64,000 nt of DNA, from positions 783,539 to 847,538 of the forward strand of contig JAQTWV010000001.1 of NCBI GenBank assembly GCA_028689115.1. The letters run 5' to 3'. The translations under genes were made by a program, and so were the position numbers. The stretch comes from Candidatus Altimarinota bacterium (GTDB lineage Bacteria > Patescibacteriota > Gracilibacteria > BD1-5 > UBA6164). The notes under the pieces were generated by a model. That model saw only the letters and a program-made list of their open reading frames with translations, did not search any database and had not been told where the DNA came from. Below are positions 24,041 to 51,106 of the stretch, one piece after another (position 1 is the first letter of the stretch; every line of letters begins with the position of its first letter).

Positions 24041-24043
24041 ATT

Positions 24044-26024: not shown

Positions 26025-26028
26025 TATT

Positions 26029-28683: not shown

Positions 28684-28685
28684 AT

Positions 28686-29435
28686 TTATATAGTTATTGG
28701 CCTTACTTGAAGTATAAATAATTTACCATCTTTTATTGTCCATTCAACATCTATTTCAAAATCAAAAAATTCTCTTAATCTTTTTAGTTCTTTAATTAAA
28801 AAAATCATCATAGATTCATTTAAACAGTTATTTTCTTTGTTATATATAAATATATCTAAATTCTCTCAAATGTATTTATATTGATTAGTTTTTATATGTT
28901 TAAATATATTGTAATTAAAATCTAAAACTATTTTGTTTGAATTAACAAAACCATCAACTAAAAATTGATTACATCACTTAACATATTCTATTAACCTAGA
29001 TCAATTATAATTAGAAAAATAAACTCAAGAAATATCTCAAACTATAAATTCTTGAACTAAAACATTCATTTCTCTATTATTAATTTTTTCTCATAATATT
29101 TTTTCTTCATATTCATCTAAAAAATTATTATTTAAAGAATCAAAAACTTCTTTTATATCTAATACTAAATTATTATCTGTATACTTTCACTCTATTGATT
29201 CAAATAATCCTGCATAAGATATTTTCTTACTATCTTCGTTATTCATAGATGAACGGCAAATATAAAAATCAGAATTTATATTTTTAAAATAAAAATTATT
29301 TAATTCTTTATTATTAAATGAAAAATCTGATATTATAAATCATTTTGGAATATTAAACTTATCTTTTATCTTTAATAAATTATTAATTTTTCATCACAAA
29401 TTTAAGTTAATAACTTCATCATAACTTATTATCAT
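28686..29435 (-). CDS. PEP-synthase-type ATP-binding domain protein (split enzyme, part 1)
   Basis: 249 residues. Matches the N-terminal ATP-grasp domain of pyruvate phosphate dikinase/PEP synthase: GGKINNLLKIKDKFNIPKGF (about 16-35), CRSSMNNEDSKKISYAGLFES (73-93), NVLVQEFIVGDISGVYF and DVEWTIKDGKLFILQVRPI at the C-terminus. The usual histidine swivel and PEP domains are absent; a swivel-like domain lies in the overlapping upstream gene (29429-30676). In rifampicin-phosphotransferase-like enzymes this pair phosphorylates a small molecule. Here I infer phosphorylation of a peptide or cofactor. Confidence 0.8.
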
Positions 29436-30676
29436 ATCTTTTTTATTATTCAATTACAAAAATTAATATTTAATAAATCTCAATTATTTAATCAATAAAA
29501 ATATCAAGTTCAAATTCAATCTACATAACTAGCTCAAATCTCTCTTAAAATAATACTATAATGTGCTAACTCTTCTAATTTATTAAAAGAAATAAAATAT
29601 TTAAATTTATAAATATATGGTATATGCAAATTTAGATCATGTTCAAAAAATAAAACTACATATTTAGAAAAATCAGATTTTATACTATAAATATCTTTTA
29701 AATGAACAACTTTTAAATTATTACTAATATTATCATTATTATTGAAAAATCAGATATTTCACTTAATTATACTTCAATCTAAAATATTTTTTTTAAAAAC
29801 AATATTTTCATTTAGATACATAGAAATAGTTTTCTTCCTTAAAAATCAATAATTTATTCAATTATATGTTTTTATTCAATTATCATCTTCCTTAAATATG
29901 TTTTTTTCCGTTTTATATAATTCTATATCAAAGTTTGTATATGAAACAAAAATTGAAAAATTTATTTTTTTTAGTAATTGTTGAAATTTTTTTTGATTTA
30001 TGTAATTTTTAAAAAATAAATTTGTTCTTACTCACTCTACTTCATTATTGATATCTAAAAAATAATTATCATACAAAATTCAATTAGTTCCATCAATAAA
30101 TAATTCTATTTTTTTTGTTAAATTATTATTTAAATTCTCAAAATTAAAATCTAAATCAAACAAAAAATCAAAATAAATAAAATTTCTATTTATTCAAATA
30201 TTTTCAAAAAAATCTAATACTAAATTTATATTTTTAATAAAATCTTCTTTTAATATCAAATCAGTTTTAAAATTTGAAAAATTTGTTTTTCTATTTCACG
30301 AACATATAAAATAATGTTTGCATTCATAACATTTGCTATTTAATTTTGGTATAACATATATTTTATTATAAAAAACATCACTTATAAAATATTTTTTTAT
30401 AAATTGTTCATCTTTAATTATACAAAATGGAAAGTTAAAAAATTTAATAATTATATTATTTGAAATAAGAAATTTATCTATTTTTATAATTTTAGGAATA
30501 AAATTATTTGCTATAAAATCAAATAGTTTTTCATCATTTTTTAATGAAAAAATTATTATTCAAATTTCGTTTCAAAGTTCAATATTTTTTAAATAATTAA
30601 AAAAATATATTTCGAAATGCTTTAAGCTATCAAAATCATCAACATTTATTTTTTTTTTAATATTATTTTTAACCAT
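29429..30676 (-). CDS. SPASM-like Cys cluster plus phosphohistidine-swivel-like domain (split enzyme, part 2)
   Basis: 415 residues. No radical SAM core. A Cys group CYECKHYFICSGN lies near residues 125-137. The C-terminus (about 345-410) resembles the PEP-utilising mobile domain: FFEHDLNLHIPYIYKFKYFI, then ELAHYSIILREIGASYV, where His would be the phosphorylated residue (compare LTCHAAIVARELGIPAVV), and LNNGDLLNIN. It overlaps the PPDK-N gene by seven bases, which supports one functional unit. Domain call made by eye; moderate certainty. Confidence 0.6.
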
Positions 30677-30686
30677 TTAAAATAAA

Positions 30687-31964
30687 TTAATATAATAATT
30701 CGAAATCAACATCGTAGCTATAGTCATAATTTTTATATATAATTGCCCTATCATTATTTTTAAATAAATTATGCATATTAGGTTCTAAATCTATATAACT
30801 ATTTGTTTTATAATAAGAAAATATATTGTTTTCTTTTAGTATTTTTTCAAGTTCTGCAATATTTCAATAAACCCTAAGAATTTTATGTAATCAATATTTA
30901 GTAATTTGAGAAAAATTTATTTTTTTATTTTTAGCATTTGCTTTTTTATATAAAAAATGATGATTTGAAACAGTATCTAAATCACAATAATGCATAAAAA
31001 AACTAGCATTTTTATTAGAAAAATAATCTATTAATTCAAGTGCTAATAATTTACTTCAATATACTCAAATTTCTATTTTTGATATATCATAATATCTATG
31101 ATATATTTCTTTTTCATCACTTGGTAGATCAAGAAATAAATTATTTTGTTTATACTTTTCCTTATTTAAATTATTAAAAGTTAATTCATTTAAATTAATT
31201 CAATCAATACATTTTTCATTATCAATTTTAGTTAATATATCAATCATATAATCCTTTGTATAAGGCATAATAGGCATTTCAATTAATACATGTTTAACAT
31301 ATTTTTTTGCCATCTTATACAATGCTATATTTGGTTCTTCTCAAGGTTTTATACTAAATCTTAATTCATCTAATCATAAATCTTTTAATTTTTGTAACTT
31401 TTCATCATTTAAAAATTCTCAAGTTGTATAAATTCTTTTATGTTTTCATGGATATTTTTCATTTATATACTCAAAAATTTCATAAATTTTATCTATAAAT
31501 AAAAGAGGTTCACCTCAAGTAACTGCTAAAGTTTTATTTGCTGGATTTGAAAAAGAATCATCTATAATTTTATAAATATTATCCATATCCTTTTTATCAT
31601 ATGGATCTATAATTACCTTTGGGGTAAGTGGTGTTTCTTCATAACAAAAAAAACAATCTCTATGACACTTATAACTCAAAACAACAGTACATCATTGTCA
31701 TAATGTACAGTAGGTACATCATACTGACCTTGTTTTATAATATATATCTTTAGAATTTTCATCAATAAATATATCTTTTCTTCACTTCAAACTATCAATT
31801 ATTTTTGATAAATTAGATTCATCTTCATTTTTAACTCATAAAAAATTTATATTTGATAAAATATTTTTAAAAAATATTTGTTTTTTTAGATACAAAGATA
31901 ATAAATCTTTTTTTAAAAATTGATTATTTGATGATTTTATTTTTTCAATTAATTCTTTTTTCAT
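30687..31964 (-). CDS. radical SAM protein with extra N-terminal Cys motif
   Basis: 425 residues. The SAM cluster is Cys100-Cys104-Cys107 (CHRDCFFCYEETP), preceded by CTYCTLGQGC (83-92), a rubredoxin-like extra cysteine group. GGEP in AVTGGEPLLFIDK. An 80-residue helical N-terminus precedes the core. C-terminal third rich in Tyr/Asn without clear Cys motif. It follows a maturase gene with a 16-base overlap. Substrate unknown. Confidence 0.85.
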
Positions 31965-33325
31965 ATTTTTTTATTATCAATATTGCATAGTGGATCTAAT
32001 GCATCATAACTTCAATTATAAATATTTGCATCCATTCTACTACCTCACATACAATCATCTTTATAATAACAATCAGAGCATTCTTTTGGTAAAAATCAAT
32101 TTGTTAATTTTTTTTGTACAAATTCTCACTCCCAAACTTTTTTAATTCATTCTTTAAATATACTTCATAAATGCATATCAAAAGCTGACATTATTTGTAT
32201 ATTTCAATCTGCAGTTATTATAGTTTTTACGTTGTGATTTGGACTTAATTCTCAATCGATAACGCTACTTGCTATATCTATATTTTTAGTTACACAAAAT
32301 GGAACCGCATCAACAATTTTAAAATTTGTATTATAAATTTTATTCAATTTATATAATTTATGAATTGCTAAAGTTATCATTTCTCTACTAATTCATTTTG
32401 TAGTTCATGTTGAAAATAATCTGAAAAAATGCCAATCTTGAACTACAAAATTTCATAACATATATTTATAAATATTTTCTAAATATATAATATTTTTAGG
32501 AGTTAAAATAGTCAAAAATCATAAAGTTAGATTTTTATAATCTTTTACTTTTTTAAGTTGCAATAACTTATTATCATATTTTAATTCCCACTTTTTAAGT
32601 TCATTAATTCAGTATATATTTGAAGCTCATTTTTTATTTAGTTCATAATAATCTTTATTATTAAACTCATGCATGGAAACCATAAAATGCAAAGAATAAT
32701 TTTCATTCAATCTTTTTAGAGTAGTATCAAAAAGTAATGTTCAATTTGTATTTATTCTTGTAAAAATATTTTTCTCCTTTAAATAATCAAGTAAATCCCA
32801 TAAAAATGGACATGAAAATGGTTCTCATCAAGTTAATATTACATCTCTTGTTCATGCATTATATAGTTCATCTATAATTACTTTAAAATCATCCAATCAA
32901 AGGGTTTTTCTAGTATTTCTTGTATCAAGTGGATAATCATAATCATTAAAACAGTAATCACAAAATAAATTACATTTACTTGTAATATTTAGTACTGTTC
33001 AAAATGGTTTTTTATAATAAAAATCTTTAGGCTTAAAAAAATTAAAATCATTAATATCTTTTTTTAATAATATATCATAAATATAGTTTAATAATTCAAT
33101 ATTATCTCATTGTATTTGCCAGTTTTTTATAGTAAATTTTGTATTAAATTTTACAAAATCAATATGTTTAAAAAAAATATATTCACTTTTGTATCAATTT
33201 GAAAATATTACTTTTAACTCTCATAACCTTACTTCCTCAATATTAAAAATACTATAACCTTTGATTATAGTATCAAAATTTATTTCAGGAAATAAGACAA
33301 GAGAATAAAATATTTTATTTATCAT
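31949..33325 (-). CDS. radical SAM/SPASM maturase with N-terminal recognition-like domain
   Basis: 458 residues. An N-terminal ~100-residue domain (beta-strand rich, FYSLVLFPEINFD...) precedes Cys118-Cys122-Cys125 (CNLFCDYC); such N-terminal domains often bind leader peptides. ILTGGEPFSCPFLW, then C-terminal CSDCYYKDDCMGGSRMD and a final Cys, a full SPASM-like set. Overlaps both the carbamoyltransferase gene (11 bases) and the next gene (16 bases). Confidence 0.87.
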
Positions 33326-35387
33326 TATTTAATGTTAAAAAAAGTGAATATATTTTTTCATAATTATTTACAATAATCATGTTTATTTTATCCAATATAT
33401 TTTTAAGTTCAAGATTATTATTTATATTTCAAGAAAAATTATAGACTAAATTTTTATGTTTAAAATAATATCAATTTTCATTATTTGATATAAAAAAATT
33501 AATTTTATATTTATCTTCTCATAAATAAAAATTATATGATAATTTATCCTTGTATATAAAACAAAAATCTACTTTAAATCCATAGGATACAAAAAATATT
33601 TTTTCAAAATATTTCCATATTTTTAAGTATATTCATCTTCATAACTCATTAAAAGAAATATTAAATAAATTTAAATCATAATTAAATTTTAAATTATAAT
33701 CATTTTTATTTTTTGATAATATATTATCTCCGATAATTAAATAATCTAACTCTGTAGATAGAAAAAGAGTAATCGCCTCTTCTGGGGTTTCTACTATAGG
33801 TTCTCATTTAACATTTAAAGATGTATTTATTAAAACTGGTATTCATGATAAATTATAAAAATAATTTAATATATCATATATTTTTCAATTAGTACTTGTA
33901 ATTGTTTGATATCTAACTGTTCAATCAATATGTACAACTCATTTTAATAAATCTAATTTATCTGTTTTAACATGACTTGAAAGAGTCATATAAGGACTAT
34001 CATAATTATCCTCAAGGTAAGCATTTATCTCTTCTCTTAAAATAATTGGAGCTAATGGTCTCCAATATTCTCTTGATTTAATTTGATTAACTTTTAAATT
34101 AGTTTCTTTTAACAATGGTGATGCTAAAATACTTCTATGTCAGAGTGCCCTAGGTCAAAACTCAGATCATAAATCAAAAATTCAAAAAATTTTATTATTT
34201 TTTAATTCATTTGAAATAAGATTTAAATCAAAATTTAGTATATTTATATATTCTTTATATTTATTAAAAATAACATCAAAATCAGTATATATTTTTCATG
34301 TATATGGTGAAAAATCAATTTTATTTAAGAAATTATTTCATTTTATTTTATAATAGAGATAGTATAATCATCATAAAGATATTCATTGATCTCAAACAGC
34401 TGACTGAACAAATATATTTTTAAATCAACATTTATTTATCAAAATACTATTTGCCAAAACATTTAATCAAACTCATCATGAAACACATATATTATCTGAA
34501 TTAGTTAATTTTTTTGCGCATTTTCACAAATATTCTATCGCTTTTTCAGTTTCATATTGTAAATGTGCTGATATATCTGCAAGTATAGTTTTTGTCACAT
34601 CATCAAATCAAGATAAGTCAGAATTTTTAAGTCCATATAATTTTTTAATATAATCACTTAGCTCTAAAAAATTAATTCATTTCTTAATAAAAAAAACTTT
34701 ATTATCTTTTAACTCAAATAAATCAATATGTGAAAATCTATCTTTATTTCAATATGCAGATAATCACATTATACTTCATGGTTCTATTCATATTAATTCA
34801 GATATTGTGCTGTAAATAGTTCAAATTCAATATAATCAAATTTCTTCAGAATATTCTGAAGAAATTAAATATTTAATTTCATTTAAATTTCAATGGTATA
34901 CTGATTGAGTAAATGTTGTTCACCCAAAACATCACTCTCAAAAAAATCAACTATTATCCATTACTAATATTGCACTATCATGAAAATTTGATGGATAATA
35001 TGAACTTAATGCATGAAAAAAATGATGTTCTTCAGATAAATTATTTTCATAAAAAAAACTTTTTATATTTTCCTTTCATAAAAAATAAAAATCTTTTTCT
35101 ATATTATAATCAAAATTAAAATCATTTATATAGTTTTTATTTTCTGAAAATAAAAAAAATCATATTATTTTATAATTTGAATAATTTCAAATAATTGAGA
35201 GAAGATATTTTAATCATTCTTGAAAATATCTTCTCATTATTAAAGCATTCGACCCTTCTTTAATTTCAAGATATTTTAATCTAGACAATCTTTCAAGTTC
35301 AATTCAATAAATTCTATTATTATATATCATAACAATAGATGGATCATGTTCAGTATCAACAAAAGATATATATATTTCTTTTTTCAT
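33315..35387 (-). CDS. NodU/CmcH-family O-carbamoyltransferase
   Basis: 690 residues. Transfers a carbamoyl group from carbamoyl phosphate to a hydroxyl, via an adenylate. N-terminal Kae1/Hsp70-like domain: starts ISFVDTEHDPSIVMIYNN, with EEHHFFHALSSYYPS. Later GGVGLNVLANSILINKCGF and SAVGDQGISLGGLYY. C-terminal YrdC-like part: FGPRALGHRSILASP, REYWRPLAPIILRE and NTSLNVKGEPIVETPEEAI. Such enzymes decorate sugars and antibiotics. In this cluster it may act on a sugar or on Ser residues of the precursor. One base separates it from the upstream radical SAM gene. Confidence 0.92.
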
Positions 35388-35388
35388 A

Positions 35389-36300
35389 TTATTTTGAATT
35401 ACTTTTCAATATATCAGATAATTGCATAAAATTTTCAAAAGATTGTTTTACTAATCATGTTGATAAAAAATTTTTCATATACTCTTTTAGATTAAAAATT
35501 TCATATTTATTAATAAAATTAATAAAATCTAAATTTTTTATATTACCTATTTTAATATAATCATTTGAATAATTTTTCATATCATAAATTGTTTCTCAAG
35601 AATCTAATGTACACATTCAATCTGGCATAATACTAAATTCAATATCAATTTTATTTTCCATAAAATAAAAATATTCATAATTTATATTATTAATTTTTTT
35701 AATAAGAAACAAAAATATTTTTAAATTATCAAAATCTTGTTTAGTATAATTCTTATACATATATATAGGCAAAATATTTATATTTTTAAATCAAATTCAA
35801 ATGATTAATTTTAAAAATTTAAAATGTTCCTTATAACATTTATCTGGATGATATATAAAAGTAATTGCATATTTCTTAAGACAATTTTTTGATATATATT
35901 TATATATATTTGATAATACTTTTAAATTTTTAATAGATATATTACTAAAAGAAATATAAATTGATGAAAAATATTTATCAAAAAATTCAATAATATCATT
36001 ATTAATTAAAATTCAATTAGTAGTAATCTTATATTTTATATCTAAATCTAATGAATTTAAAACAAAATACTTAATTTTATCAAATACTAATAATGGTTCT
36101 CCTCAAAAAAATTCCACTGAAACACTTCAAAAATTATTTCTATTTTTTTTAATAAATAAAATTATATCATCTATAGTTTCAAATGAAATATACTCTTTTT
36201 TAAAATTAACGACACAATAATAACACCTAATATTACATTCAAGTGTCATATAAATAAGTATAACTATATTTTTTTTATCCATAAAATTTATTTCTATCAT
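35389..36300 (-). CDS. radical SAM protein, NILP paralogue 2
   Basis: 303 residues; an internal ATG at codon 7 is a possible start. Cys22-Cys26-Cys29 (CNIRCYYC), EFFGGEPLLVFDKIKYFV, and INILPIYMYKNYTKQDF. A C-terminal MPDGMCTLDS resembles the start of a SPASM segment but lacks the other cysteines. Closely related in plan to 47317-48240. Confidence 0.86.
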
Positions 36301-37690
36301 AATAATAATCTAAAAAAATACTATTATAATACTCTAACTCCTCAGTATTAAATCACATACTCAACCATTTATCTAAAATTTTTTTTAATTGTTTATCTCT
36401 TATATCATCATTTATTAAATATATATTTAATAAATCTAACTCTTTATCTGAATTAAAATTAACATATATATTTCATATTTCATTAATTTTAAAATTAGAA
36501 CTATATCTAATATAAAAATCATTTAACTTACTATGTTTTTTTAATGCTAAATAAAAAATATCTTTATTGATTCATCTTGTAATATTTAAATTTTCAAGAA
36601 TATAAAATAATTCTATATCACTATCATCAAGAATATATCATTTATATTTAAATGTATTTTGTTTCCATCAAGAATAATTTAAATCCTCATAAACAAGTTT
36701 TCAAGGAATATGTGATGTTGATGTTAATCATATTCATAAAATAGCTGTATTTTTAACCTTTCTTTCTTCAATCTCTTCTCTTTTTGTATCAAATAATCAA
36801 ATAAATTTATTATCAATATATTTATCAACAATTCTAACTAATTTTTGAGAATTTTTAATATAATAATTACATATATCTAGAAATTTTTCTTTTCAATATT
36901 TATTTAAAAATAAACTTCAAAAAGTTGTTCTCATTGAAATATCCCATCTATTTGGTTCAAAATTTACATTTATATTATTATTTTTTAATTTTATTCAATA
37001 TTCATACATTTTCTCCATATCTGATATCAAATCTGAAGCAGTCATATATGGTAAATTATACATCATATCAAATGAAACTTTTCTAAAATTTAAATTAATA
37101 ATATTATTAATTGCAAGATCAATTTTATTTAAATCAAAACTTCTATTATTTAGTTTATTAACTTTTTCACTAAAAGTTTGAATTCAAAGCATAATATCTG
37201 TAACACCATATGATTTTAATATATTAAGTGTATTTTCACTTAAATAATAAGGTTGAATTTCAACTTGCCATATTATTTTATCATCAAATTTAAAATTTTT
37301 CTTTATTTCATCACATATTTCAATTATATAATCATCTGGCCAAATATTAAAAGTACCTCATCAAAAATAAATTGAATTTAAAGGTTTTTTAATAATTTTT
37401 CAATAATAATTTATTTGATAAATTATATATTCTTTATATTTTAAAAAATCATTTTTATCTCACTTAATAAATGTTTTACAATCACAATATGAACATCTAG
37501 TTCAACAATATATACTATGAAGATAAAGTTGTAGATTTGAATCTGTATTATTAAATTTTAGCCAATTATCATTAATTAAATCATTTTCTACATTAACGTT
37601 TAAAAAGGTATCCATAGGATACCTAAAACAAAATCAATCTAATTTAAAAAATATTATTAAAAATAAATATTTTTTTAGTTCATCAAACAT
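36275..37690 (-). CDS. HemW/HemN-like radical SAM protein
   Basis: 471 residues. CX3CX2CXC motif at 62-71 (CGTRCSYCDC), the HemN/HemW form, then IYFGGGTFNIWPDDYI, EIQPYYLSENTLNILKSYG and LGIQTFSEKVNKLNNR, all matching HemW/coproporphyrinogen dehydrogenase-like proteins; SFDMMYNLPYMT follows. Family members handle heme or use C-methylation chemistry with two SAM molecules (HemN-like methyltransferases). In a peptide cluster the latter is a reasonable guess. Overlaps the next gene by 26 bases. Confidence 0.85.
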
Positions 37691-37701
37691 AAAAATTAAA
37701 A

Positions 37702-38664
37702 TTAGAAATTCATTATTCTATCAATATTAAAATACATTAAATCTGGATTATAATACAAATCAGTTTTACTATCTGTATATTCTATTTTTTCTTTGTTATC
37801 AATTCTATTTTTATAGAAATTATTTTCTTCTGTATAATATTTAATTTTATCCTCATCTAGATTTTTATTAAACTCATTTATTAAAATATATGAAGAATAA
37901 TAACAATAGTAAGCCTCAAATATTGAATCCTTTTTTGCTAAATCTTTTCATTTTTTAAATATTTCCTCATATATTTTTAAAGAATTATTTAAATCTTTTT
38001 CATTTTTATATGCTTTTGCTAATAAAATAAGTCAAAATAAATCATGAATAGCATATTCTTCTAATTTTTTTGAATTATCTATTATATATTTAAAATTAGA
38101 CTTTTTATATTCATACATAATTTTTTCTATGAAAATATCTAGATTTTCATTATTTTTTATTAACTCTCATGCTTTATCAATATATCAATCATAAATATAA
38201 GCCTGAATTAATTGAGATAAAATTATACTATTAACTCAAATTTCATTATTATTATTTTCTTTTAGCATTTCTAATGCTTTATTTCATAATGATATTACTT
38301 CTTTATAATTTCATTTATCAATATAAATATACATTAATTGTTCATAATCACCTATATCTTTTTTTCCATTTTCATTATATCTTTTCAATGCTAGAGTTAA
38401 TGCAGTATCTATATTTGTGTCATCTATATCTTGAATATGATTATCAAGTGAAAATGATTGAACAATTCAAGTTGATGTACTAACTCACCCCGATCAATTT
38501 CATTCATTTACAACTCATGTCAAACTTTCTTCTTGAACTTGAACAACATTAGTAACTAAAAATTTATCTTTATTAACAAATAAAAAACCTAATAATAATA
38601 CTATTATTACAACTAAAAATATTACTAATATTATTAAAACTGAATTATCTTTATTAGTTTTCAT
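37702..38664 (-). CDS. membrane-anchored TPR-like protein
   Basis: 320 residues. One N-terminal membrane segment (about 9-30, VLIILVIFLVVIIVLLLGF), then a Ser/Gly/Asn linker and helical repeats from about residue 90 to 250 (YEQLMYIYIDKGNYKEVISL, and YKNEKDLNNSLKIYEEIFKK) that look like tetratricopeptide repeats. Likely faces outward. It may be an assembly or secretion partner for the cluster. No catalytic motif. Confidence 0.75.
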
Positions 38665-38691
38665 AAAAATTAAATAAAAAAATAAAATAAA

Positions 38692-39807
38692 TTAAATTGA
38701 TATATCTATATTATATTTTTTTTGAAGTTTTTTCAAAAGAATAAATTTTTTGTCTAAATCATAACTTACATGGTTATTACCATATATATTATTTACATCA
38801 GAATATTTAAAAAAGAATGTTTTATCATAATAATTTAAAAATTTTAATGCTTGCATAAATTCATCTAGTGTTTCCTCATTATAATTAAATATTATATGAT
38901 TATGTAATTCTGTTTTAGAATTCTTTTTTATATCTTTTAATACTTCAGTTATTTTTTCAACATCATATGATCTATTCATTAGTTTTAATATTCTAGGAGA
39001 ATAATGTTGAACTGGTACCAATATATATGGAATTCTTCATCAGTAAATAAATTTTTTTATATCTTCATAATATTTAACTAAATATGATGGATATATATTT
39101 GTAATATAAACTTTAATTTCACTATTTATACTAAAAATATCTTTAAGTAATTCAACAATATTAGTTCATATATCTGATCAATAACTTCAACAATCATCTG
39201 ATAATAAAAATATTTTAGTTTTTTTGTTATTAACTTCTTGTATTATTTGGTTAATTATATTTTCTTTAGTTTGACTTACAGTATTTCATTTTATTTTTTT
39301 AATATTACAATATGAACAATTTAATTGACATCAATCTGAAATTTCAATAAATGCTATTTTATCAAAATTTGATAGTTCTGATTCATATTTTTTAAAAGAA
39401 TTATCAGTGTCTAAAATATCAATCTTCCCATTATGAAAATATTCTCAAATTTTTGAAATTCCAATACTAAATTCAAAATACTTTTCTATATCAGTATAAG
39501 ATTTAGAATCAATATAAATCAATCTATCTCCATATTTTTCAATAAAAATTTTACTTATACATCATAAAAGTATAATTTTTTTTCACAAATTCAAATAATA
39601 TTCAATTTTTCGATGAGTTGCATCAACTAGCTCACTATTAACTCAGCATAAATCCAAAATAACTATACTAGTAATATCAATATTTTCAGTTAATTTATAA
39701 TTATTCACAATAAAAAAATTATAAATTTTTACAAATTTATTATCTGACAATAAACAATCAATTGAAACTCTATCAAACAATAACGAATTTGAATTATTAA
39801 AAATCAT
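38692..39807 (-). CDS. methylthiotransferase-like (MiaB/RimO) radical SAM protein, copy 3
   Basis: 371 residues. The UPF0004-like N-terminal domain has all three auxiliary-cluster cysteines at 18, 54 and 83 (IDCLLSDNKFVKIYNFF, LDLCGVNSE, LLGCIS), then the radical SAM triad Cys160-Cys164-Cys167 (CQLNCSYC) and DDCGSYGSDIGTN, equivalent to the EDTGAYG stretch. The C-terminal TRAM RNA-binding domain of MiaB/RimO is missing. So it is probably an S-insertion or methylthiolation enzyme for a non-tRNA substrate. Highly similar to the next gene upstream (same LMNRSYDVEKI-like block). Confidence 0.85.
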
Positions 39808-39831
39808 TAAATTATTAGATTAAATATTAAA

Positions 39832-40953
39832 TTACCATAAAGGAATATCAATAGAATATTTTTTTTGAAGTTTTTTTAATAATATAATTTTTTTATCCAA
39901 ATCATAACTTATATGATTTTTTCAATATATATTATTTACATCTGAATACTTAAAATAAAATGTTTTATCATAATAATTTAAATATTTAAATGTTTCTACA
40001 AATTCTTCAAGTGTTTCTTCATTATAATTAAATATTATGTGATTATGTAATTCTGTTTTTGAATTCAATTTAATATCTTTTAATATTTCTATTATTTTCT
40101 CTACATCGTACGCTCTATTCATTAATTTAAGAACTCTTGATGAATAATGTTGTACTGGAACTAATATATATGAAATCTTATCTAAGTATATATATTCTTT
40201 TATTTTATTATAATATTTTACTAAATATAATGGATAAATATTTGTTATATATAATTTTATATCTCCTTTAATATTAAATATATCACAAATTAAATCTCAA
40301 AAATTTGTTCATATGTCAAATCAATAACTTCAACAATCATCTGACAATAAAAATATTTCTGTTTTTCAGTCTTTTACTGCTTTTTCAATTTCATTAATTA
40401 TATCTTCTTTTTTTAAACTTTTTGTATTTCCTTTAACTTTTTTAATATTACAATATGAACAATTCAATTGACATCATACAGATATTTCTATAAAAAATTT
40501 TTTATCAAAATTATTTTCTAAAGAATATCATCCTCATTTAAAATGATTTCAAGTTGATAATAAATTAATTTTATTATCACTATAAAATCTATCAATCCTA
40601 ATATAGTTAATAGTAAATTCAAAGTACTTTTCTACATCATTATAATTTTTTGAATCTATATAATAATATTTATTTCAGTACTTATTGCTTATTATATCAC
40701 TAATACATCATATTAAAAATACAATTTTTCACTCATTATAATAAAAATTTGCCTTTTCTTCTGCAATATCTATATAACTTTTTCATACTCAACATAAATC
40801 CAATATGACTATATCTGATTTATCTAAATCAGATGATATTGAATAATTATTAACAGCAAAAAAATTATAAATTTTTACAAATTTATTATCAGATAATAAA
40901 CAATCAGTTCATAATCTATCAAAATATATTCTTTGATTAATACTAAATTTCAT
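39832..40953 (-). CDS. methylthiotransferase-like radical SAM protein, copy 2
   Basis: 373 residues. Cys18, Cys54 and Cys83 (TDCLLSDNKF, LDLCGVGKS, LIGCIS) and Cys161-Cys165-Cys168 (CQLNCSYC) match copy 3; the two are a recent duplication with long identical stretches in the C-terminal half (TELHNHIIFNYNEETL). It has no TRAM domain. Ends in DIPLW. Probably functionally related to copy 3 with a different site preference. Confidence 0.85.
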
Positions 40954-40969
40954 AAAAAAAAATTACATA

Positions 40970-42271
40970 TTAGAAATCTCTATTGTTAAATATTTTTATT
41001 CATTGACTTAAAGTTTCATTTTTATCAAAAATTCTATCTAGAAATTTAACTTTAATTTTCCATAAATAAACAAGTCTTCTCATCATCTCTTTTTTATCAA
41101 TTTTTCATATAAAATCAACTGATTTAGTTCATTTCCTATCTGAATAATACCAAAACCATATTTCATCAAAAATATTCATTACAGAAAAATAACTTTTAAA
41201 TTCATCAAATGTTTCAGTTGGAAATCAATATATGAATTGTGTTGTAATAGTAATATTTTTATTTTTTTCTTTTATTTTTTTTACTATTTCAATTACATTA
41301 TTTATATCATATCTTCTATTCATCAATTTTAAAATTCTTTGAGAATTTGTTTGTAATGGAACACAAAAATGGTCAACTTTATTCCATACATTTTTATCAA
41401 TTTTCTCATAAAGCTTCTCTAGTCTTCATGGTTCAAAATAAAATATCCTAAGTTTAAAGTCTCAATTTATTTTTGCTACTTCATTTAATAAATCAGCAAA
41501 ATCTATTCATATATCTAATCAATAACTTGCACTATCTTCATCTATAAAATGAATTTTTTTATATCATAAGGATATTCATCTATTAATTTTAGCAATTACT
41601 TTTTCTAATGGTACACTGTTAACAAATCCAGCTACATTTCTTATATCACAATAAGTACAATAGCCTCAACATCAAGTACAAATTTCAATAGGATATTCTC
41701 ATGAAATATCATCTAAATAATTATATTTTTCATAATCATATTCTATATTTTCATTTATAATATAGTTTCATGATTTTATTATATCTCAAGTTATTTCTAA
41801 ATCATACTTTGAAAAGACATACTTTGATTCTATATTCATTCAAGAATATCAATATAAATCTAAATTTAAACTATCAAAATATAATGGAATAAAAAATTTA
41901 ACATTATCAACGTCAATCGTATTAATAGAAAAATTATGTTCAAATAAATCATCAAATTTATTTAATGATTTTGCTCAAATAAGAATAACTCTATCAAATC
42001 AATCCATATATTTCATCATTCAAGACATAGATCAAATCAATATAATTTTAGCATTTAAATTTTTCTTTAAATAAAATCATATTGTAAGTAAATCTTTTTT
42101 TTCTTCATTTTCTTCAAATGGATATCAATTTAAAATAATAAAATCAGCTAAATCTGGAGATTTAACTAAATTATATCAATTTTTTTTAAAAAAATTATAA
42201 ATTATAGTACTATGGTATGAACATATTTTATGCTCACTTCAAGATCAGGCTCCAATAAATATATTTAACAT
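40970..42271 (-). CDS. methylthiotransferase-like radical SAM protein, copy 1, lacking auxiliary cysteines
   Basis: 433 residues. The same plan as copies 2 and 3, but the three auxiliary Cys positions are changed (GAGSGSEHK, LNGYPF, IGSMSG), so the sulfur-donating cluster is probably absent. The radical SAM triad Cys201-Cys205-Cys208 is intact (CGGYCTYCDIRNVAG), followed by DEDSASYGLDIG and LMNRRYDINNVIEIV. A longer insert sits between N-terminal and core domains. It may have a different reaction, or may use another protein's cluster. A 103-base gap without gene separates it from the SDR upstream. Confidence 0.83.
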
Positions 42272-42374
42272 ATTTTATTTATTTTTTATATTTTAATTTT
42301 ATAAATTTTTTTGTGTTAATTTTTTCAATCTTATACAATAGAAAATAATAGTGTATTTAAAAAAATTAATTAAA

Positions 42375-43112
42375 TTAATCCCATCATCAATCCAAAAAAA
42401 CAACTTCTCAATTTAAATAAGAAAAATTATCTCAAACTAAGTCTAAAATAACTTTTCATACATCAGATGGAGTTGTAAATTTATTTAAGTAAATTGGATC
42501 CAAATCACTTTTTATATCTATTTTACTATTGTTAATTTCAGTAGATACATTACCTGGTGCAATTGCTAAAACTCTAATTTTAGGTGAAAAAGCTTTTGCA
42601 AAATTTTTAGTCAAAGTTATTATTCATACTTTTGAAATATCATATTCTATTTCATCTGGTGAAAAATACTTAGTTCAATTTATAGATGATAAATTTAAAA
42701 TAACTCCTCCATTTTCATTTTTCAACATCTCTTCAATTCAATACTTACTACACAAAAATGTTCAAAGTAGGTTTGTGTTTATAACTTTATTCCAATCAAA
42801 TACAGTTTTTTCTAATATAGGTTTATTAATTAGAACTCAAGCATTATTAATTAATATATCTAATCTTCAAAAGACTTTAATTATTTCTCAAATCATATTT
42901 TTTACTTGATTTTCATCTGAAACATCACACTTTATAGAAATAGCATTTCATCAAATCTTTCTAATAGATTCCACAACCTTATCTGCTTTTTCCTTTGAAG
43001 ATAAATAGTTTACAACTACAAATGCTCATTCTTTTCAAAAATGAAGTGCTGTTGCCATACCTATTCATCTACTTGCTCAAGTTATTAAAACTACTTTATT
43101 TTTAAATCTCAT
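42375..43112 (-). CDS. short-chain dehydrogenase/reductase (SDR)
   Basis: 245 residues. Classical SDR: TGASRGIG (11-18), NNAG (about 87-90), catalytic Ser in LNLSSING, Tyr-x3-Lys in YDISK, and the APGNVSTEI loop, ending EVVFLDGGWD like FabG. It oxidises or reduces an alcohol/ketone with NAD(P)H. Follows the PIG-L gene by six bases. A modifying step on a sugar or precursor is likely. Confidence 0.92.
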
Positions 43113-43118
43113 AAAAGC

Positions 43119-43784
43119 TTAATTAATATTTCTATATAAAATAAATGCTTCCGCATACTTTAATCAAGATTCCATTCACCTATATTTTGCTAAAACTTCA
43201 ATTCATTCAAAACTTCTAGGATGTGGAAATTCTCTTATTTCTGTTTCATAAATTGAAAATATTTTTTTCTTATTCTCAATAAAATTTTCTATATTTTCAT
43301 AATAATTTGGTATAAAAGTATCTTTTCAAATAGCTAATTCAGTTGTTGATAATACTTCAAACATAAATATAGTTTTTACAAAACTATATTTTCAAAATGG
43401 TCTAAGTGCAGTCAATGTTGCTTTAGAAACAATTCCATGATCTATATTTAAATCATTATAAAAATGAGTATAAACAGTTTTAGGTTTACTTATATCTAAA
43501 ACTTCTTCTATTTTTTTTATTAAATCTAATAGTCTAACTGAATCAAAACTTGTATCAGGAAAATCACTATAAAATATTTCATTAATTCATAATTTTAAAC
43601 ATACTTCTTTAAAATTTTTTAATCTTATTTCTCATTCTTCTTCATTTTGTCTAGCATTTATAGGCTTTGACAATAAAAAAATATCAACAATAAATCAATC
43701 CAAAATATATTTTTGAATTGTTCATCACATTCATAGAACTTCATCATCTGGATGTGCTGTTATTATTAATATTTTTTTATTCAT
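43119..43784 (-). CDS. PIG-L (LmbE-type) deacetylase
   Basis: 221 residues. Zinc motif AHPDDEVLGMGG (10-21), and later HFYNDLNIDHGIVSKAT with a further His. The family removes acetyl from N-acetylglucosamine-type groups. Beside the glycosyltransferase and SDR it forms a small sugar-like tailoring block inside the radical SAM run. A 132-base gap precedes it, with a minus-strand TATAAT at 43805-43800, so there may be an internal promoter. Confidence 0.92.
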
Positions 43785-43799
43785 ATTTTTTTAAATTTT

Positions 43800-43805
43800 A
43801 TTATA
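43800..43805 (-). promoter_or_regulatory. possible internal -10 element
   Basis: TATAAT on the minus strand, 16 bases before the PIG-L start, in the longest intergenic gap (132 bases) of the island. No clear -35. Confidence 0.35.
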
Positions 43806-43916
43806 AAATCATTATTTCTAATAATAAAATATTTTTACTTATAATCAAATGTGTTTTGAATTTCTTTAAAGAATATTAAAACATTGATTTTATATTTTTG
43901 TGGGAAATTATATTGA

Positions 43917-45389
43917 TTATATTCAACTATTATAAAATAATTCATCTTGTTTTAAAATTTGTGATTTAATTAAAACATCATAAGTTTTATTTTTATTAGT
44001 TAATGATGTTATTTTATCTAAAATATACAAATTATATTCATACTCTTTTAATAAAAATCATTTTTCTTTTGTTTGATGAAATCTATGTCATACTCTATTG
44101 AATTGATAAATTCATTTAATATTAATGTTTCAACAAATTATTTCTAAAGTTCTATTATAAAATAAATCTAATGAACATTTATCAAAACTCTTATGATATT
44201 TTAAATCAAGTAAATCTCTATAAAATCTATCAAATATTATAGGTGTTTCCTCTTGACTAACATAAACTGGTAATCTATCAACAATATTTCTATTTGTAAA
44301 AACTCCTGGTTGAGAAAATCATGATTCCATAAAAATATAATCCTTATAATTAATATCATATCTAACATCTACATTTTCGATAGAATAAAGTCACATATGT
44401 CTATAAGAATTAATATTTTTATATAAATTTTCTATTGCTTTATAATCTAAAAAAACATCATCATCTAAAAAAACAACATATTTTGAAATTTTATCTTTTT
44501 TTAATAATTTCCATCTAGTTTTTCAAACTCCTAAATTTTTTTTATTAACAAAATATTGAAAATTATCAAATTTATTTTTATATTTTTTACATATTTCTAA
44601 TATATCTTTTTTTTGTTTCTCATCATATCAATCAATTCAAATAATTATTTTAAAATTTTTATTTGTTTGTAATAATAATGTTTCAAATAAATCTTTTAAA
44701 AACTTAGATCTAGCTACCGGTATTTGTAAAGATATTATTTCATCATAATTATTGAAAAAATTTGAAATCTTAAATTTCAAATTTGAATTAAGAAAAAACA
44801 ATGAATAAGACCAATATCTATATTCTAAAAGTGAAAGAACGAAATCTTTAAAAAATATTTTTCAACACAAAAAATCATCATTAAATTTTTGAAGTTTTAA
44901 TGATAATAAATCATACAATTTGTATAAATTTTCATTTATATCTAAGTATTCTGGAATCAATAAATCATTCTTAACCAAAAAATTATCATCTATATTTTTA
45001 ACAGACATAAAATCTTTTGTAGAAATTTCATTTAATCAATTTATATATGTATTATTTAATGAAACAACTTTAGAAATGTTTGATAAAGTTTTTAGAGCAA
45101 TTCATAAAAGATTATCAAAATAAAAAATTACTTTATATACTAATTTTTCATCATTTAAATTACATATTAAAAAATATTTACTATATTTTTTTCATATTAT
45201 ATCTAAATCAAATCAAAATAAATCTCATTGCTTATCTATATAGATAGTTTTAAAACTTAAATTTTTATCATTAAAAATATACTGATTAAACTCAAATTTA
45301 TCTGCATAATCAATATTATTAACAAAATTAATTCATTCAAATTTACTATTTAGTGAGTGATTAGATTTATTTTTTAAATATATATACAT
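43917..45389 (-). CDS. glycosyltransferase family 2-like protein
   Basis: 490 residues. An unassigned N-terminal part of about 210 residues precedes a GT-A domain: IISLQIPVARSKFLKDLFET with ILLQTNKNFKIIIGIDGYDE, then KYVVFLDDDVFLDYKAI (about 345-361) with the DxD metal motif, and NIVDRLPVYVSQEETPI. Transfers a sugar from a nucleotide sugar. Two bases separate it from the upstream radical SAM gene. Target unknown; a peptide or a sugar made for it is possible. Confidence 0.82.
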
Positions 45390-45391
45390 AA

Positions 45392-46285
45392 TTATTTATT
45401 ACATTCTATTACTTTCGTTCTAACATTTAACAAATTATCATCACATTTTGAACAAAATTTATTTTTCATATCAATTGTATCATAACACTCATTAAGTATT
45501 TTAGTCATTCAATTTTCATCACTATAATCATCAATATTTCACAATTCATAATGCATACAAAGTGAACCTGGAAAAACATCACCTTTCCGGTTAAAAAATG
45601 GTTTAAATCAACACATTCCATTATAATTATAATAAGGATCTGTATTTCATTTTACGTATAATTCTTCATATCTTTCAAGTTTTCATCAAAAATTATGTAA
45701 TCTATGAATAACACAGTCAACTCATAAAACTTTACAAAATTTTTCATAAACTCATACTTCATCTACAGAATATTTTGTTAATAATAATTCCATACAAAAA
45801 TCAAATTTTAATTTTTTCATTCTTTTTATTGAATCAATTGTCTCAGATAAAAAATTTATTTTACTGTTTTTAATTCAATACATCTTATTAATAACCTTTT
45901 CTCTAAGTGAATATAGTCAAAGTTGAAGAGTTATATTTACTCAAGAATCTCTTAATTCTTGAATTTTTTTTATAACATCATCTGATAAAAAACTTAATCA
46001 TTTTGTTGGTAAAATAAACCAAGTTCATGTAAAACCTTTTAGCTCATCTAATATTAATAATATGTTTTTGTTAATTAATGATTCTCCTATTCATGCAAGT
46101 GCTACATAAATTATATCTTCATTATTTAAAGTAACAAAATTTAATACTTTCTTAAAAGTTTCAACAGACATATCTCATAAATCTTTTCTTTTTCAATGAA
46201 TACATCAAACACAATTAAGCATACATCTAGATGAAATTTCTACATCAATTGGATATTTGTATGGTTTATCTAAATATTTTTTCAT
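45392..46285 (-). CDS. radical SAM protein
   Basis: 297 residues. Cys21-Cys25-Cys28 (CMLNCVGCIHGK). The GGEP position reads LAGIGESLINKN. C-terminal cysteines include GMCGFKPFF, SLCMHYE and CSKCDDN, a SPASM-like set. This spelling resembles radical SAM proteins annotated as molybdenum-cofactor-like or SPASM maturases. Substrate unknown. Confidence 0.85.
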
Positions 46286-46308
46286 AACTAGAATTTTATA
46301 ATAATTAA

Positions 46309-47292
46309 TTATATTTTTTTATTAACTAAAAAATCATAAATATTTCAATTCATAATATTTCTATTATTAACATTATTATTCATAATTCTATAAATAACCG
46401 CATATGTTTTTAAATATCATAGTTTTTTAGGAAAACTATAAAGTAATTTAACAATATTTTTTATATCATATTTTGATATTATTTGTTCAAGTTTTATATC
46501 TTTTATATTTCATATTAGAGTAAAGTCTTCAACTTTTTTTAATAAATCATCTCACAATGCTTTAAATTGTTTTCAAATATATAATTCATCACTAGAATCT
46601 TGATAAATATTTAAATTTGTATTTATTACAAATCATATTTCTTTTGGAATTCAATCAAAGTAAGAATATTTTCATATTTTTAAATAATTATACTCATTAT
46701 TTTTTATATAATTATTATCAACATAATTTATAAATTTCATTAAATTAATTAATCACTGATTATCCCATTCTATTGTAAGCATAACAGGAATTATATTTAT
46801 ATGTTTAAATCAAAAATCTACTGTTAAATTCAATTTTTCATATAAAAAATCTATATTTCTAGGACTTGCTATAAAATTAATATTAATTAAATCAATTCAT
46901 TTTGATAAAAATTTTTTTCATAATAAACTTTTATATGTTTTTTCAAAATCAGCATGAAAAGTAAGAAATATTTTTACATTATATTTTACAAAAAAATTTA
47001 ATATATCTTCTGTAAGAAGCATTCAGTTTGTTCAAATAGTATAGTCAATCTTATCGTTTAAATTATTTTCAATAAAATACTTAATATTTTCAAAATTTAA
47101 TAAAGGTTCTCATCAAAAAAAATTTATAGTACAAAAATCATATTCTTCTGTATTTTCTAACAAATAATTTATTAGAAAATCAATATCTTCTTTTTCTAAA
47201 AAATTATTTGTAAAATTTATAGGACAATATTCACATCTTCTATTACAATTATTTGTCATCATTAAATCTATAATTATTTTTCTCTTATTCAT
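46309..47292 (-). CDS. radical SAM protein, NILP paralogue 3
   Basis: 327 residues. Cys16-Cys20-Cys23 (CNRRCEYC), NFFGGEPLLNFENIKYFI, and INIIPVMLTIEWDNQG. It has the same N-terminal layout as the gene at 26949 but a longer C-terminal tail (KIEKIISKYDI-type helices). No C-terminal Cys cluster. Confidence 0.86.
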
Positions 47293-47316: not shown

Positions 47317-48240
47317 TTAAATATTTCTAAAAGATTCTTTATCATTGTATTTTTTTAATAGGTTAGATAAAAACAATAAATTTTTATAATCTTGATTTAC
47401 ATTTCAAGTAATAGATATATTTTTTAAATAATCTATATAACTATAATTCTGTAAATTATCATAAATTTCTTCAAAGTTTAAATTTCAAATATATCATATT
47501 GATTTATTTATATTATTTTTTACTCAAAAAAATTGCTCAGCAGTCCCCATATTATCTCATAAAATAGAACCATCTGGATTAATTGTAAACTCAAAATGAT
47601 TACTTTTTTCTTGAATATAATATATAAATTCTAAATTTAAAATATACTTAAATTTCAAAACAAAATTAATAAATGATATTAAGTTTTCAAAATCATTTTT
47701 TTCATATTTATAAACCAATACAATTGGTAAAATATTAATTGATTTATATCATTGTTTAACTACAAATAAAAAATTATTTTTTATATCCTCTAAGTTTTTT
47801 CTTGGATCGTATATAAAATTTATATTTATATTATTTTTATTTTTTATCTTATCAGAAATTCTTACAAATGATTTATTATTATCAAAATAATTTTCATTAT
47901 AACTTAAATTAACTTTGTCTATATTAACAATAAAACTATTATAAATATGATCATCTATAATAGTTCAATTTGTTGTTATCTGAAATTTGATATTAGGTGA
48001 AATATTTGTAGAAGAAATAATTTTAATAATTTTTTCTCTTTGTAATAATGGTTCTCATCAAATAAACTCAACAAAAACATTTTTAAATTTAGAATAATTA
48101 TCTACAATAAATCACGAAATTTGATTTATTGTAGTATCATTCATAACAAATTTATCAAAATTTATTACACAATAAGAACATCTTAAATTACAATCATAAC
48201 TTAGATATATAACTATATGTAAATCAAGTAATTTAAACAT
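47317..48240 (-). CDS. radical SAM protein, NILP paralogue 4
   Basis: 307 residues. Cys17-Cys21-Cys24 (CNLRCSYC), FIGGEPLLQREKIIKI, and SINILPIVLVYKYEKNDFEN. C-terminal INPDGSILGDNMGTAEQ is like a SPASM entry without cysteines. First gene after the precursor, 23 bases away, so it is a strong candidate for a primary modifying enzyme. Confidence 0.87.
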
Positions 48241-48263: not shown

Positions 48264-48689
48264 TTACCGTCTACTACCATGTGATCCATGTGACCCATGT
48301 GATCCATGTGACCCATGTGATCCATGTGATCCATGACTACTATGTCATGCTACATTTGTAACTCATCACATACTAGCATTTAATACATGAGTACCTGTTC
48401 AACTATAATGTCAATTAACAATTCAACTTGAATGTGCAACTGTACATTGTGCAGATCAATCAACATAAGTAATATTATAATTTACAGTAACTCCTCAACC
48501 CAAACCATCAGGATTATATCAATTAGCATGCGTTGTTGCTGCTAATGCATCATCAATTCATGATAATAATAATGCTCCTGTTCATAATAATAGAGCATCT
48601 TTCTTACTAATTTTACCACTTTCATCAGTAATAAAACCTTTTAACTTTTTCTTTAACTTTGGAAAAAGCTTTTTATTATTTTGATTCAT
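48264..48689 (-). CDS. His-Xaa-Ser repeat RiPP precursor (HxsA-like)
   Basis: 141 residues. Basic leader (MNQNNKKLFPKLKKKLKGF), a conserved-looking block ITDESGKISKKDALLLGTG, then a hydrophobic stretch LLLSGIDDALAA that may be a signal or cleavage site. The C-terminal core is Gly/His/Ser-rich and ends in one HSS and seven HGS triplets followed by RR-stop. Two further HxS triplets (HSS, HYS) and one Cys lie upstream. The repeat glycines are GGA/GGG/GGT, not TGA, while earlier glycines are mostly TGA. It lies between HxsB-like and radical SAM genes, as expected for the substrate. It is longer and less repetitive than I expect of typical HxsA. Confidence 0.8.
48275..48340 (-). repeat. 9-bp tandem repeat coding for His-Gly-Ser
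   Basis: Seven units of CATGGRTCA-type sequence (the last is CATGGTAGT) in frame at the 3' end of the precursor gene. Third-position changes (GGA/GGG) alternate between units, so they have been kept by protein selection and not only by slippage. Confidence 0.85.
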
Positions 48690-48720: not shown

Positions 48721-50202
48721 TTATATAGATTCACATTGACTAGTTACTAAATTATTTTCCATTCATAACCATTTTTCAAATACTTTTTTATCCTCTTCAA
48801 CTCTTATCTTTCAAAATAAATAATCAAGTACAGCATAATCAAGAATTCTTTTATGATCTTTTGCGTAAGTTGGGATTATATTTCAAGATAATTTATAACT
48901 ATGAATTGGACAAACTCAAATGTATGGTTTATATACACTTTCATTGTAACCCGGTAATCAATCTAGAGTCGATGCTTGAACCATTATTTTTGTAGTTTCA
49001 CTTTCAATCATATTTTTATATGTTTCACTTCATGAATCAGTAACCTCAGTCATCAAAAAATTATCATCTCACATTCTTCAAAGCATTCTTCATTCATCAC
49101 AAGAGTATATTTTTCAATCATAATTATAAGCAACTTGACCAATACAAGCTCAACATGGACTTCTTTCATCTAAGAAATTAGGGTCCTTATTTGTAAGTAT
49201 TTTTGATAAATATATAGATGATAATGCTTCTTTAAAAATTACTCATTTTTTATTTAATTCTATTATATAATCAAGAGATTTTTTATAAAATTCTATAAAC
49301 TCTTCTGGTTCATAACCTAGTTTTTCTAATTCAGCAGCTGCAAAACCATATGGATTTAATGGTCTTAAAAATATTCAATCAAGTCATAATCATACATATG
49401 TATCTATTACCTCTTTATATCTAGAAAGTGTTTTTTTAGTTACTGTAAGTAAAGCTCAGACCTTAGTTTCAATTCATCTATTTACATATTCTTGATTTAT
49501 TCTTTTTATCCAATAAGTTACTTTTTCAAAACTATTACCTTCCTTAAATGTTCTATTAAAATTATGAGTTTCTTCATCTCAATCTAAACTTGTAGAAATT
49601 TGAACATTATGAGTTATTAAATAAGCTAACTTTTCTTCATCCATTAAAGAAAGATTTGAAACGATTGCAAAAGTTAAATTTTTATTTAAATGAAGTGCTT
49701 TAATTTCTGCATATTCTATTATATATTTTACTATATCCCAATTAACAAGTGATTCTCATCATTGAAATTCAATAGTTAAACTTGGATTACTTGTAAAAAA
49801 TATAGTATCAACAACTTTTTTAGCAGTATCAATTGTCATATCCATATCTTTGGCAGTCATAGGAGCAACTGCTGCATGACAATATTGACATTTATGATTA
49901 CATCTAAGTGTTGTAACAATTATATGAAGTGATGGTCAATATCTTAAAAATTCATTTTTTAAAGCAAATGCTGAAGCCATTTCTTTTTCATAATCAGAAT
50001 TTTTAATAAATTTTTTATTTAATAATTCATCATACTTTTCTCACTGTTTTAAATTACCTGATATGAAATCAGAAAATTCACTTTTTGTTAAAAATGAATA
50101 TTTAGCTATATCATTTGTAATAAGATAATCATCTCAAAATTTTTTAAATCTAAAAAATCATGTATTATTATCTATTTTTTTTAAATTATCTAATTTTAAC
50201 AT
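48721..50202 (-). CDS. hxsB: His-Xaa-Ser system radical SAM maturase, HxsB-like
   Basis: 493 residues. N-terminal domain of 95 residues with FFRFKKFGDDYLITND, then Cys101-Cys105-Cys108 (CNHKCQYCH) and FQGGESLVNWDIV. The HxsB-typical C-terminal block RSPCGACIGQVAYNYDGKIY, SCDEGRMLGRMGDD is present, giving SPASM cysteines, with YIGVCPIHSYK and a last cysteine CES near the end. I assign it from this block and from the HGS-repeat precursor and HxsD-like neighbour. It probably makes the first modification at the repeats. Confidence 0.86.
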
Positions 50203-50243: not shown

Positions 50244-50438
50244 TTATAGCTCATTTATTAATCAAGTAAGGTAATTCATAAACTCATTAAATATATTATC
50301 TATATCCTCTTCATTTCATTCAATAGATAATATTTCATTTTCATAAGTCATTTCTGATACATCTGAAAAATCATCTATTGTTTGTAAAACAAATGATTCA
50401 GGATAAAAATAACTACTTATTTCAAAACTTTTGCTCAT
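50244..50438 (-). CDS. small acidic protein between HxsD-like and HxsB-like genes
   Basis: 64 residues, ATG start. Sequence begins MSKSFEISSYFYPESFVLQ and is rich in Asp/Glu (ENEILSIEGNEEDIDNIF), no Cys or membrane segment. It could be a second HxsD-like fragment or a leader-binding/precursor protein; too short to decide. Position 16 bases after the HxsD-like gene and 41 before HxsB-like makes it part of the same operon. Confidence 0.6.
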
Positions 50439-50454
50439 ATTTTAAATATTAAAC

Positions 50455-51018
50455 TTATTTAATAAATTGCTCTTTTGCTTTTTTAAATCAATCTAAATCC
50501 ACTTTTATCATTGGTTTTTTTCCTTCTAATTCAGATTCTTCTTCAATTTCTTTAAGTATTCTTTCAATTTCTTCTTCATCAATTTTTAAATCAGGATCAT
50601 TTTCTATTTCTCTTAAAATATCATCTATATCTTTATCAAAATCAATTTGGTTTTGTTCAGTATTATTTGAATCAGTATTTATTTGAACAAAATTGTTTGA
50701 ATCTAAACTATTTGCAATAGCAGCTCAAACGATAGCTTCTCTTATAGTTTTATTTTCTTTTTCTAATTTATCTCTCAAATATACAGATAATAATTCATCA
50801 CTAAAATCTGCAATGATATTTTCTGGTTTTTCAGTATTATCTTCTCTTTTTGTAAAAACTAAAACTATATTTCAATCATTATTTAATTTAAAAAAGAAAT
50901 ATCATCTTTCTAAAAAATTATATGCAGCTTTTAATACTATATCTTTATTAAAAATATCTTTATCTATAACTAATTCAAATTTAACTCATTCTATAATATG
51001 ACTCAAAAAATTTTCCAT
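50455..51018 (-). CDS. hxsD: HxsD-like His-Xaa-Ser system protein
   Basis: 187 residues. The first 110 residues match HxsD in plan: VIDKDIFNKDIVLKAAYNFL, a short beta segment, then DFSDELLSVYLRDKLEKENK and TIREAIVGAAIANSL. HxsD is the small conserved component of the system, perhaps for precursor recognition. The C-terminal 75 residues are very acidic (long Asp/Glu-rich helices) and extra to the family. First gene of the island, preceded by a -10 TGTATAAT at 51062-51055. Confidence 0.75.
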
Positions 51019-51054
51019 ATATTCGTCTTTATTAAATAAAAAAATATTTAACTT

Positions 51055-51062
51055 ATTATACA
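51055..51062 (-). promoter_or_regulatory. extended -10 promoter element of the His-Xaa-Ser run
   Basis: TGTATAAT on the minus strand, about 37 bases before hxsD and directly after the U-tract of the ATP synthase terminator. TTGGTC lies 16 bases upstream inside that terminator stem. Confidence 0.5.
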
Positions 51063-51106
51063 AAAAAAAATAAGAAGACCAAATCTTTTTTAGTCTTCTT
51101 ATTATT
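51063..51106 (-). terminator. terminator of the ATP synthase operon
   Basis: Arms AATAAGAAGAC / GTCTTCTTATT around a 13-base loop, followed by nine T on the minus strand. It overlaps the promoter region of the next operon. Confidence 0.85.

Follow-up and report, generated by a model that had tools for sequence, protein, structure and literature searches.

A probable His-Xaa-Ser type RiPP precursor beside an HxsB maturase in a gracilibacterial radical SAM locus

A locus rich in radical SAM genes in the genome of a Candidatus Altimarinota bacterium (Gracilibacteria) includes a short open reading frame that ends in tandem His-Gly-Ser triplets and adjoins a gene for an HxsB maturase, and it raises the question of whether this frame encodes a substrate of the neighboring enzymes and, if so, how precursor and maturase compare with the systems already on record. 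We analyzed the locus within a stretch of 64,000 nucleotides, referred to here as the window. The ORF very probably encodes the precursor of a His-Xaa-Ser type RiPP. The kind is already known; the gracilibacterial version is new, with an NGH core in the precursor and an HxsB that lacks metal-binding cysteines.

Reading frame and parts of the precursor

The precursor ORF (48264..48689) lies on the minus strand, as do all window genes and precursor segments given below, and is open only when TGA is read as sense; 11 of its Gly codons are TGA. Because the ATP synthase genes of the window, which lie on the other side of the locus, carry TGA at positions where we take Gly to be the expected residue, genetic code 25 applies. 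Under table 11 the precursor ORF is interrupted, and table 4 places Trp where ATP synthase requires Gly. Translated with code 25, the ORF yields a protein of 141 aa, MNQNNKKLFPKLKKKLKGFITDESGKISKKDALLLGTGALLLSGIDDALAATTHANGY...VAHSSGIVNGHYSGTG...AGHSSHGSHGSHGSHGSHGSHGSHGSRR. Across 18 precursors, TGA makes up 25 of 109 Gly codons inside HxS runs vs 168 of 298 elsewhere, an under-use that may reflect repeat duplication. The window also contains a 751-aa ORF (56758-59013) in which the hairpin motif of the ATP synthase c subunit, ALVE(S/V)(A/V)AIYG, occurs ten times, as if a whole c ring were encoded as one polypeptide; no fused c subunits were found in the regions compared from relatives, most of which need not include atp genes.

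An earlier note on this DNA had described a 141-residue protein with seven terminal His-Gly-Ser triplets, further His-x-Ser triplets and a single Cys upstream, and a basic leader and hydrophobic segment before Ala-Ala, encoded between an HxsB-like maturase and a radical SAM gene, and these features were all recovered. The protein is laid out as an HxsA3-type leader, a Gly-rich core, one HSS, seven tandem HGS and a closing Arg-Arg. The leader (residues 9-46, FPKLKKKLKGFITDESGKISKKDA...; 48552..48665) is delimited by its match to the HxsA3 model and is conserved in an alignment of 22 gracilibacterial precursors, and a hydrophobic segment (48540..48593; about residues 33-49, with Ala-Ala at 50-51) ends in ALA/A, a possible signal-peptidase-like site. 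H-x-S/N triplets start at residues 54 (HAN), 86 (HSS), 94 (HYS), 116 (HSS) and 119-137 (HGS, seven times), and the single Cys is C82. The conserved core motif HSSGIVNGHYS spans residues 86-96 (48402..48434), and HSS plus seven HGS fill residues 116-139 (48273..48344), where the DNA forms a 9-bp tandem array of 6.6 copies (48277-48335). When the residues from 51 on were shuffled 100,000 times, the longest run obtained was four, against the eight tandem HxS units observed.

The ORF is not a chance one, because homologs of the precursor recur across its family, in 30 of 40 genomes with its own included. Of 44 leader codons compared with the relative L057, 21 are identical, 12 differ synonymously and 11 non-synonymously, as expected for coding sequence, albeit from one pair and a small sample. 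A tblastn search of the precursor against a plasmid collection gave no match, and a Pfam search returned no family for it, nor for HxsD.

Family membership and relatives

The earlier note had proposed an HxsA-type precursor of an HxsB maturase, with His, Ser and Gly positions as possible targets of the enzymes encoded nearby. The maturase side of this claim stands: HxsB passes TIGR03978 (498.9 bits, cut-off 370), HxsD passes TIGR03976 (60.2 bits, cut-off 50), and the repeat protein lies 31 bases from HxsB. The HxsA assignment does not stand in its formal sense, as TIGR03979 (HxsA) found no match in the precursor's own genome at E 0.001 with the frame read through TGA, and was not among the matches of the translated precursor. 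Only the leader half of NF038309 (HxsA3) matches, over residues 9-46 (40 bits, cut-off 65), while NF038313 (HxsA4) matches residues 97-139 (32.7 bits, cut-off 55). Since the curated cut-offs are not reached, we file the precursor as HxsA3/A4-like and not as a formal member. In an alignment of 28 precursors, 18 from Gracilibacteria and 10 selected elsewhere, the HxsA3 model matches 26 and the HxsA4 model 22.

Among the 22 aligned gracilibacterial relatives, which include L051 (partly masked) and L062 (truncated at a contig end), the most constant element of the core is the NGH motif (HxSGIVNGHYS) rather than the HGS run. All 22 have NGH, 21 as [VI]NGH and one as TNGH, and all have a recognizable leader, most diverged in L072, and, as read by eye from the alignment, a small-or-Val-x-Ala site after the hydrophobic stretch. 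At least two HxS units in a run occur in 20 of the 22. The NGH motif is not absolutely fixed, since outside this set a G542 precursor has VDGH and the G524 precursor ANGH, and it is absent from all 47 listed HxS-run ORFs outside Gracilibacteria (three named gracilibacterial loci set aside). Two distant phylum-mates carry precursors of other dimensions, G348 with two tandem HxS-repeat precursors of 131 and 179 aa (L032, 14554-15514) and G273 with a 521-aa precursor combining HSQ/HSS repeats and a large extra domain (L034, 1503-3068).

Precursors also occur without an HGS run. According to the earlier note, repeat-less homologues that keep the same maturases would speak against its reading, and this pattern was found in part: in L065 and L069, Ser-Gly repeats replace the HGS run, and HxsB, HxsD, the HxsD-like ORF, the leader and the NGH core are kept. 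These two loci argue against the repeat as an indispensable target, not against the precursor reading. In genome G393 (listed as 98% complete), precursors lie beside radical SAM genes, one with Ser-Gly repeats and one with a short HSNHGSHSS stretch, and no HxsB scores above 42.7 bits. The co-variation of repeat number with maturase content, which the earlier note had suggested as a check, is weak: HxS run length and the number of radical SAM genes are not significantly correlated (Spearman 0.38, p 0.20; 13 loci, kinship uncorrected). We count the L065/L069 and G393 cases, the sub-threshold HxsA scores and this lack of a clear relation between run length and gene number against the precursor/HxsB explanation.

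The kind as such is known and widespread, since named genomes hold at least 79 HxsB loci from many phyla, including Elusimicrobia, Myxococcota, Clostridia, Omnitrophota and Woesearchaeota, and an ORF with three or more HxS/T units in tandem lies within 6 kb of 50 of the 79 listed. Above the cut-off, HxsB was found in 3 of 379 genomes sampled across the phylum and in 22 of 192 genomes of the class, all in the window's own family and order. The precursor directly follows HxsB in 18 of 24 regions as first counted, and in 20 of 24 when L065 and L069 are included. HxsB appears in the available parts of PMC9062424 and PMC8446631, and the available part of PMC11452946, a metaproteogenomic study of Gracilibacteria, yielded nothing on RiPPs.

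The locus and the cysteines of HxsB

Genes run on one strand in the order HxsD, HxsD-like protein, HxsB and precursor, followed by a locus with 17 further radical SAM genes, and gaps down to 21102 do not exceed 132 bases. HxsD (50455..51063) probably starts at the ATG at 51018, as in homologs; the 64-aa HxsD-like protein (50244..50438) scores 32.5 bits against NF038315 (cut-off 41). The structural model of HxsD has a pLDDT over 90 for about residues 31-100, and its top PDB matches, which are weak (E 6.6e-3, TM by target about 0.5), are to Rpb11-type subunits of RNA polymerase and could hint at a dimer of HxsD with the HxsD-like protein. For HxsD as a PqqD-like recognition element, no PqqD-type entry was among the best 50 structural matches, all weak. 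HxsB itself (48721..50202) gives a model with pLDDT 89.4.

On the other side of the precursor lies a radical SAM protein gene (47317..48240; PF04055, 48.2 bits, cut-off 29.5), followed by a middle region (23315..47292) with 14 further radical SAM genes, including three MiaB-like and one HemN-like, and genes for a family 2 glycosyltransferase and for PIG-L, SDR, carbamoyltransferase and PPDK_N proteins as well as unknown genes. The three MiaB-like proteins (371, 373 and 433 aa, below the family cut-off) are encoded consecutively at 38692-42271. The distal end comprises an HxsC4-like radical SAM gene (22046..23311; NF038332, 131.8 bits, cut-off 500) and an HxsC-like one (21102..22046; TIGR03977), the latter reaching 96.6 bits against a cut-off of 267.9, the best HxsC score among the window radical SAM proteins scanned. 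A CxxxCxxC motif is present in 18 locus genes, HxsB included, and all 10 of the other 17 radical SAM genes that were scanned pass Pfam Radical_SAM. This array (13 genes by HMM, 4 by motif) is the largest among the compared regions. Orthologs of the two distal genes occur in 9 (22046-23311) and 10 (21102-22046) of 22 other regions, several of them cut by contig ends, and sit 5.4-33.4 kb beyond HxsB, at the array's end or close to it. The locus has conserved ends around a variable middle, in which most genes differ from region to region. L061, L066 and L067 have their nearest radical SAM genes on the opposite strand.

We compared seven SPASM cysteine positions across 102 non-redundant HxsB proteins, three identical rows having been dropped; L056, L064 and L003 have the same HxsB sequences as the named loci L135, L152 and L124. 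Positions were assigned to Aux I and Aux II presumptively, from the anSME ligands and an alignment to CteB. The window HxsB keeps three of the seven conserved cysteines (350, 368, 431), along with C353, and has no Cys at 419, 422, 428 or 452. Across the 102 proteins, the seven vary mostly as two sets: both are complete in 54; Aux I is complete and Aux II absent in 17 (16 of the window's class, with the window HxsB among them, and one from Buchananbacteria); Aux I is complete with three of four Aux II cysteines in 4; Aux II is complete in 19, with Aux I partial in 10 and absent in 9; and both sets are absent in 8. Gracilibacterial HxsB proteins thus lack the four presumed Aux II cysteines, and a nested clade of eight lacks all seven, with the radical SAM triad retained. 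Myxococcota-type HxsB proteins (L088, L090, L092, L094, L095, L097, L098 and others) show the reverse loss, with presumed Aux I gone and Aux II retained. In genome G505, a second HxsB (L071, 2983-4410) has all seven cysteines and no adjoining precursor, and is followed by a 1080-aa secreted-looking protein.

A tree of 101 HxsB rows was built by a quick method with the cysteine columns excluded and the partial sequence L141 omitted; L071, L072 and L146 have long branches. With Aux II three-of-four scored as complete, the four cysteine states need 7 changes on this tree, vs a mean of 40.4 when shuffled (0 of 200 shuffles as low). Proteins without any of the seven cysteines group as a single clade (support 99) nested in a gracilibacterial clade of 23 rows (support 97), and, because of this nesting, the losses in gracilibacterial HxsB appear to have been stepwise.

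Candidate chemistry and relation to known systems

In the mechanism that we propose, HxsB, together with HxsD and the HxsD-like protein, would dock on the FITDESGKISKKD leader and apply 5'-deoxyadenosyl-radical chemistry to H-x-S/N units, acting first on the HxSGIVNGHYS core and then on the HGS tail. Further decoration might come from the HxsC-like pair and some array enzymes, after which the hydrophobic segment and its ALA/A site would direct passage via the Sec system, and the His-rich modified peptide would be released or held at the cell surface. Its likely role, suggested with low confidence, would be to bind metal or to contact a host bacterium. For other SPASM enzymes, the available part of PMC11002830 describes a bond that joins residue i to residue i+2, either C2 of His to a C-beta or C4 of Phe to the C-beta of Ser. 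By analogy with such His-type triceptides, a bond from the His imidazole to the beta carbon of the Ser or Asn two residues on is the leading candidate, and we put it forward tentatively, as something less than probable.

An oxidative cross-link sits uneasily with the loss of auxiliary cysteines, which would suit redox-neutral chemistry or an external electron acceptor. One could accordingly imagine a redox-neutral gracilibacterial HxsB that epimerizes or isomerizes core residues, so that Aux II became dispensable and, in one clade, so did every SPASM cluster; the loss of cysteines as sets, the clade without any, the retained radical SAM triad and the SPASM fold kept in the model are in keeping with it. 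However, loss need not mean changed chemistry, because myxococcal and other HxsB proteins that lost the other set serve similar HGS precursors, and the structural similarity to EpeE-type epimerases is distant (Z about 18), so we regard this alternative as improbable. To the same low degree we credit the idea that the HGS tail is an unmodified metal-binding or flexible tail and HxsB acts on the NGH core only: L065, L069 and one precursor of G393 have Ser-Gly repeats where the HGS run would be and keep the NGH core, which speaks for it, but HxS runs are the feature shared by HxsB-linked precursors across phyla, none of whose 47 listed representatives has NGH.

A rival with nearly even odds concerns the middle radical SAM genes, which may belong to other pathways that accumulate at the site and not act on the precursor. 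Their MiaB-like and HemN-like members agree with this, as do the 17 of 29 window locus genes that have no ortholog in other regions at 40% identity and 70% cover. Against it stand the single strand, the short gaps and the failure to find a second precursor-like ORF between 20500 and 51200; additionally, the loci without an adjoining precursor (L060, L068 and L071, a small number, with a precursor elsewhere in the L068 genome) have no downstream radical SAM gene in reach. Returning to the precursor reading, its most far-reaching form is a speculation to which we assign little weight: gracilibacterial HxsB lost Aux II and then all clusters while still serving an HxS precursor, and that one precursor is diversified by up to 17 further radical SAM enzymes from a variable cassette, flanked by conserved HxsB and HxsC-like ends, which would make the locus a combinatorial radical-SAM RiPP island. 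The role of the auxiliary clusters is directly testable, since HxsB homologs with both SPASM cysteine sets, one set or none lie beside similar precursors; the precursors that have no HGS run allow core and tail to be told apart as possible targets. Our literature search found no description of a His-Xaa-Ser product or its chemistry, though HxsB spans many phyla.

By profile and by model (Z about 36), the solved structures closest to HxsB are CteB (5wgg) and anSME (4k36-4k39), with 18-20% identity to the window protein; for anSME, model residues 88-481 align with Z 36.6 (356 aligned, rmsd 2.8). CteB and anSME bind auxiliary clusters. With triceptides, the three-residue cyclophane RiPPs treated in the available part of PMC11002830, the locus shares the H-x-S/N layout from i to i+2 and a SPASM-type enzyme; however, HxsB is not a described cyclophane former, and the window HxsB has lost auxiliary cysteines. 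The closest known system is the His-Xaa-Ser system (HxsA/B/C/D; TIGR03979, TIGR03978, TIGR03977, TIGR03976), reportedly described by Haft and Basu in 2011, with which the window shares HxsB and HxsD above their cut-offs and an HxS-repeat protein adjoining HxsB. It differs in a precursor that is below every HxsA cut-off seen and has an NGH core, in HxsC-like genes that are below their cut-off and 25-27 kb away, in an HxsB without some auxiliary cysteines and in the 17 extra radical SAM genes of the locus. Of the curated precursor families, HxsA3 (NF038309) matches the window leader and HxsA4 (NF038313) its tail, and the window precursor is distinguished from both by the long Gly-rich NGH core between leader and repeat.
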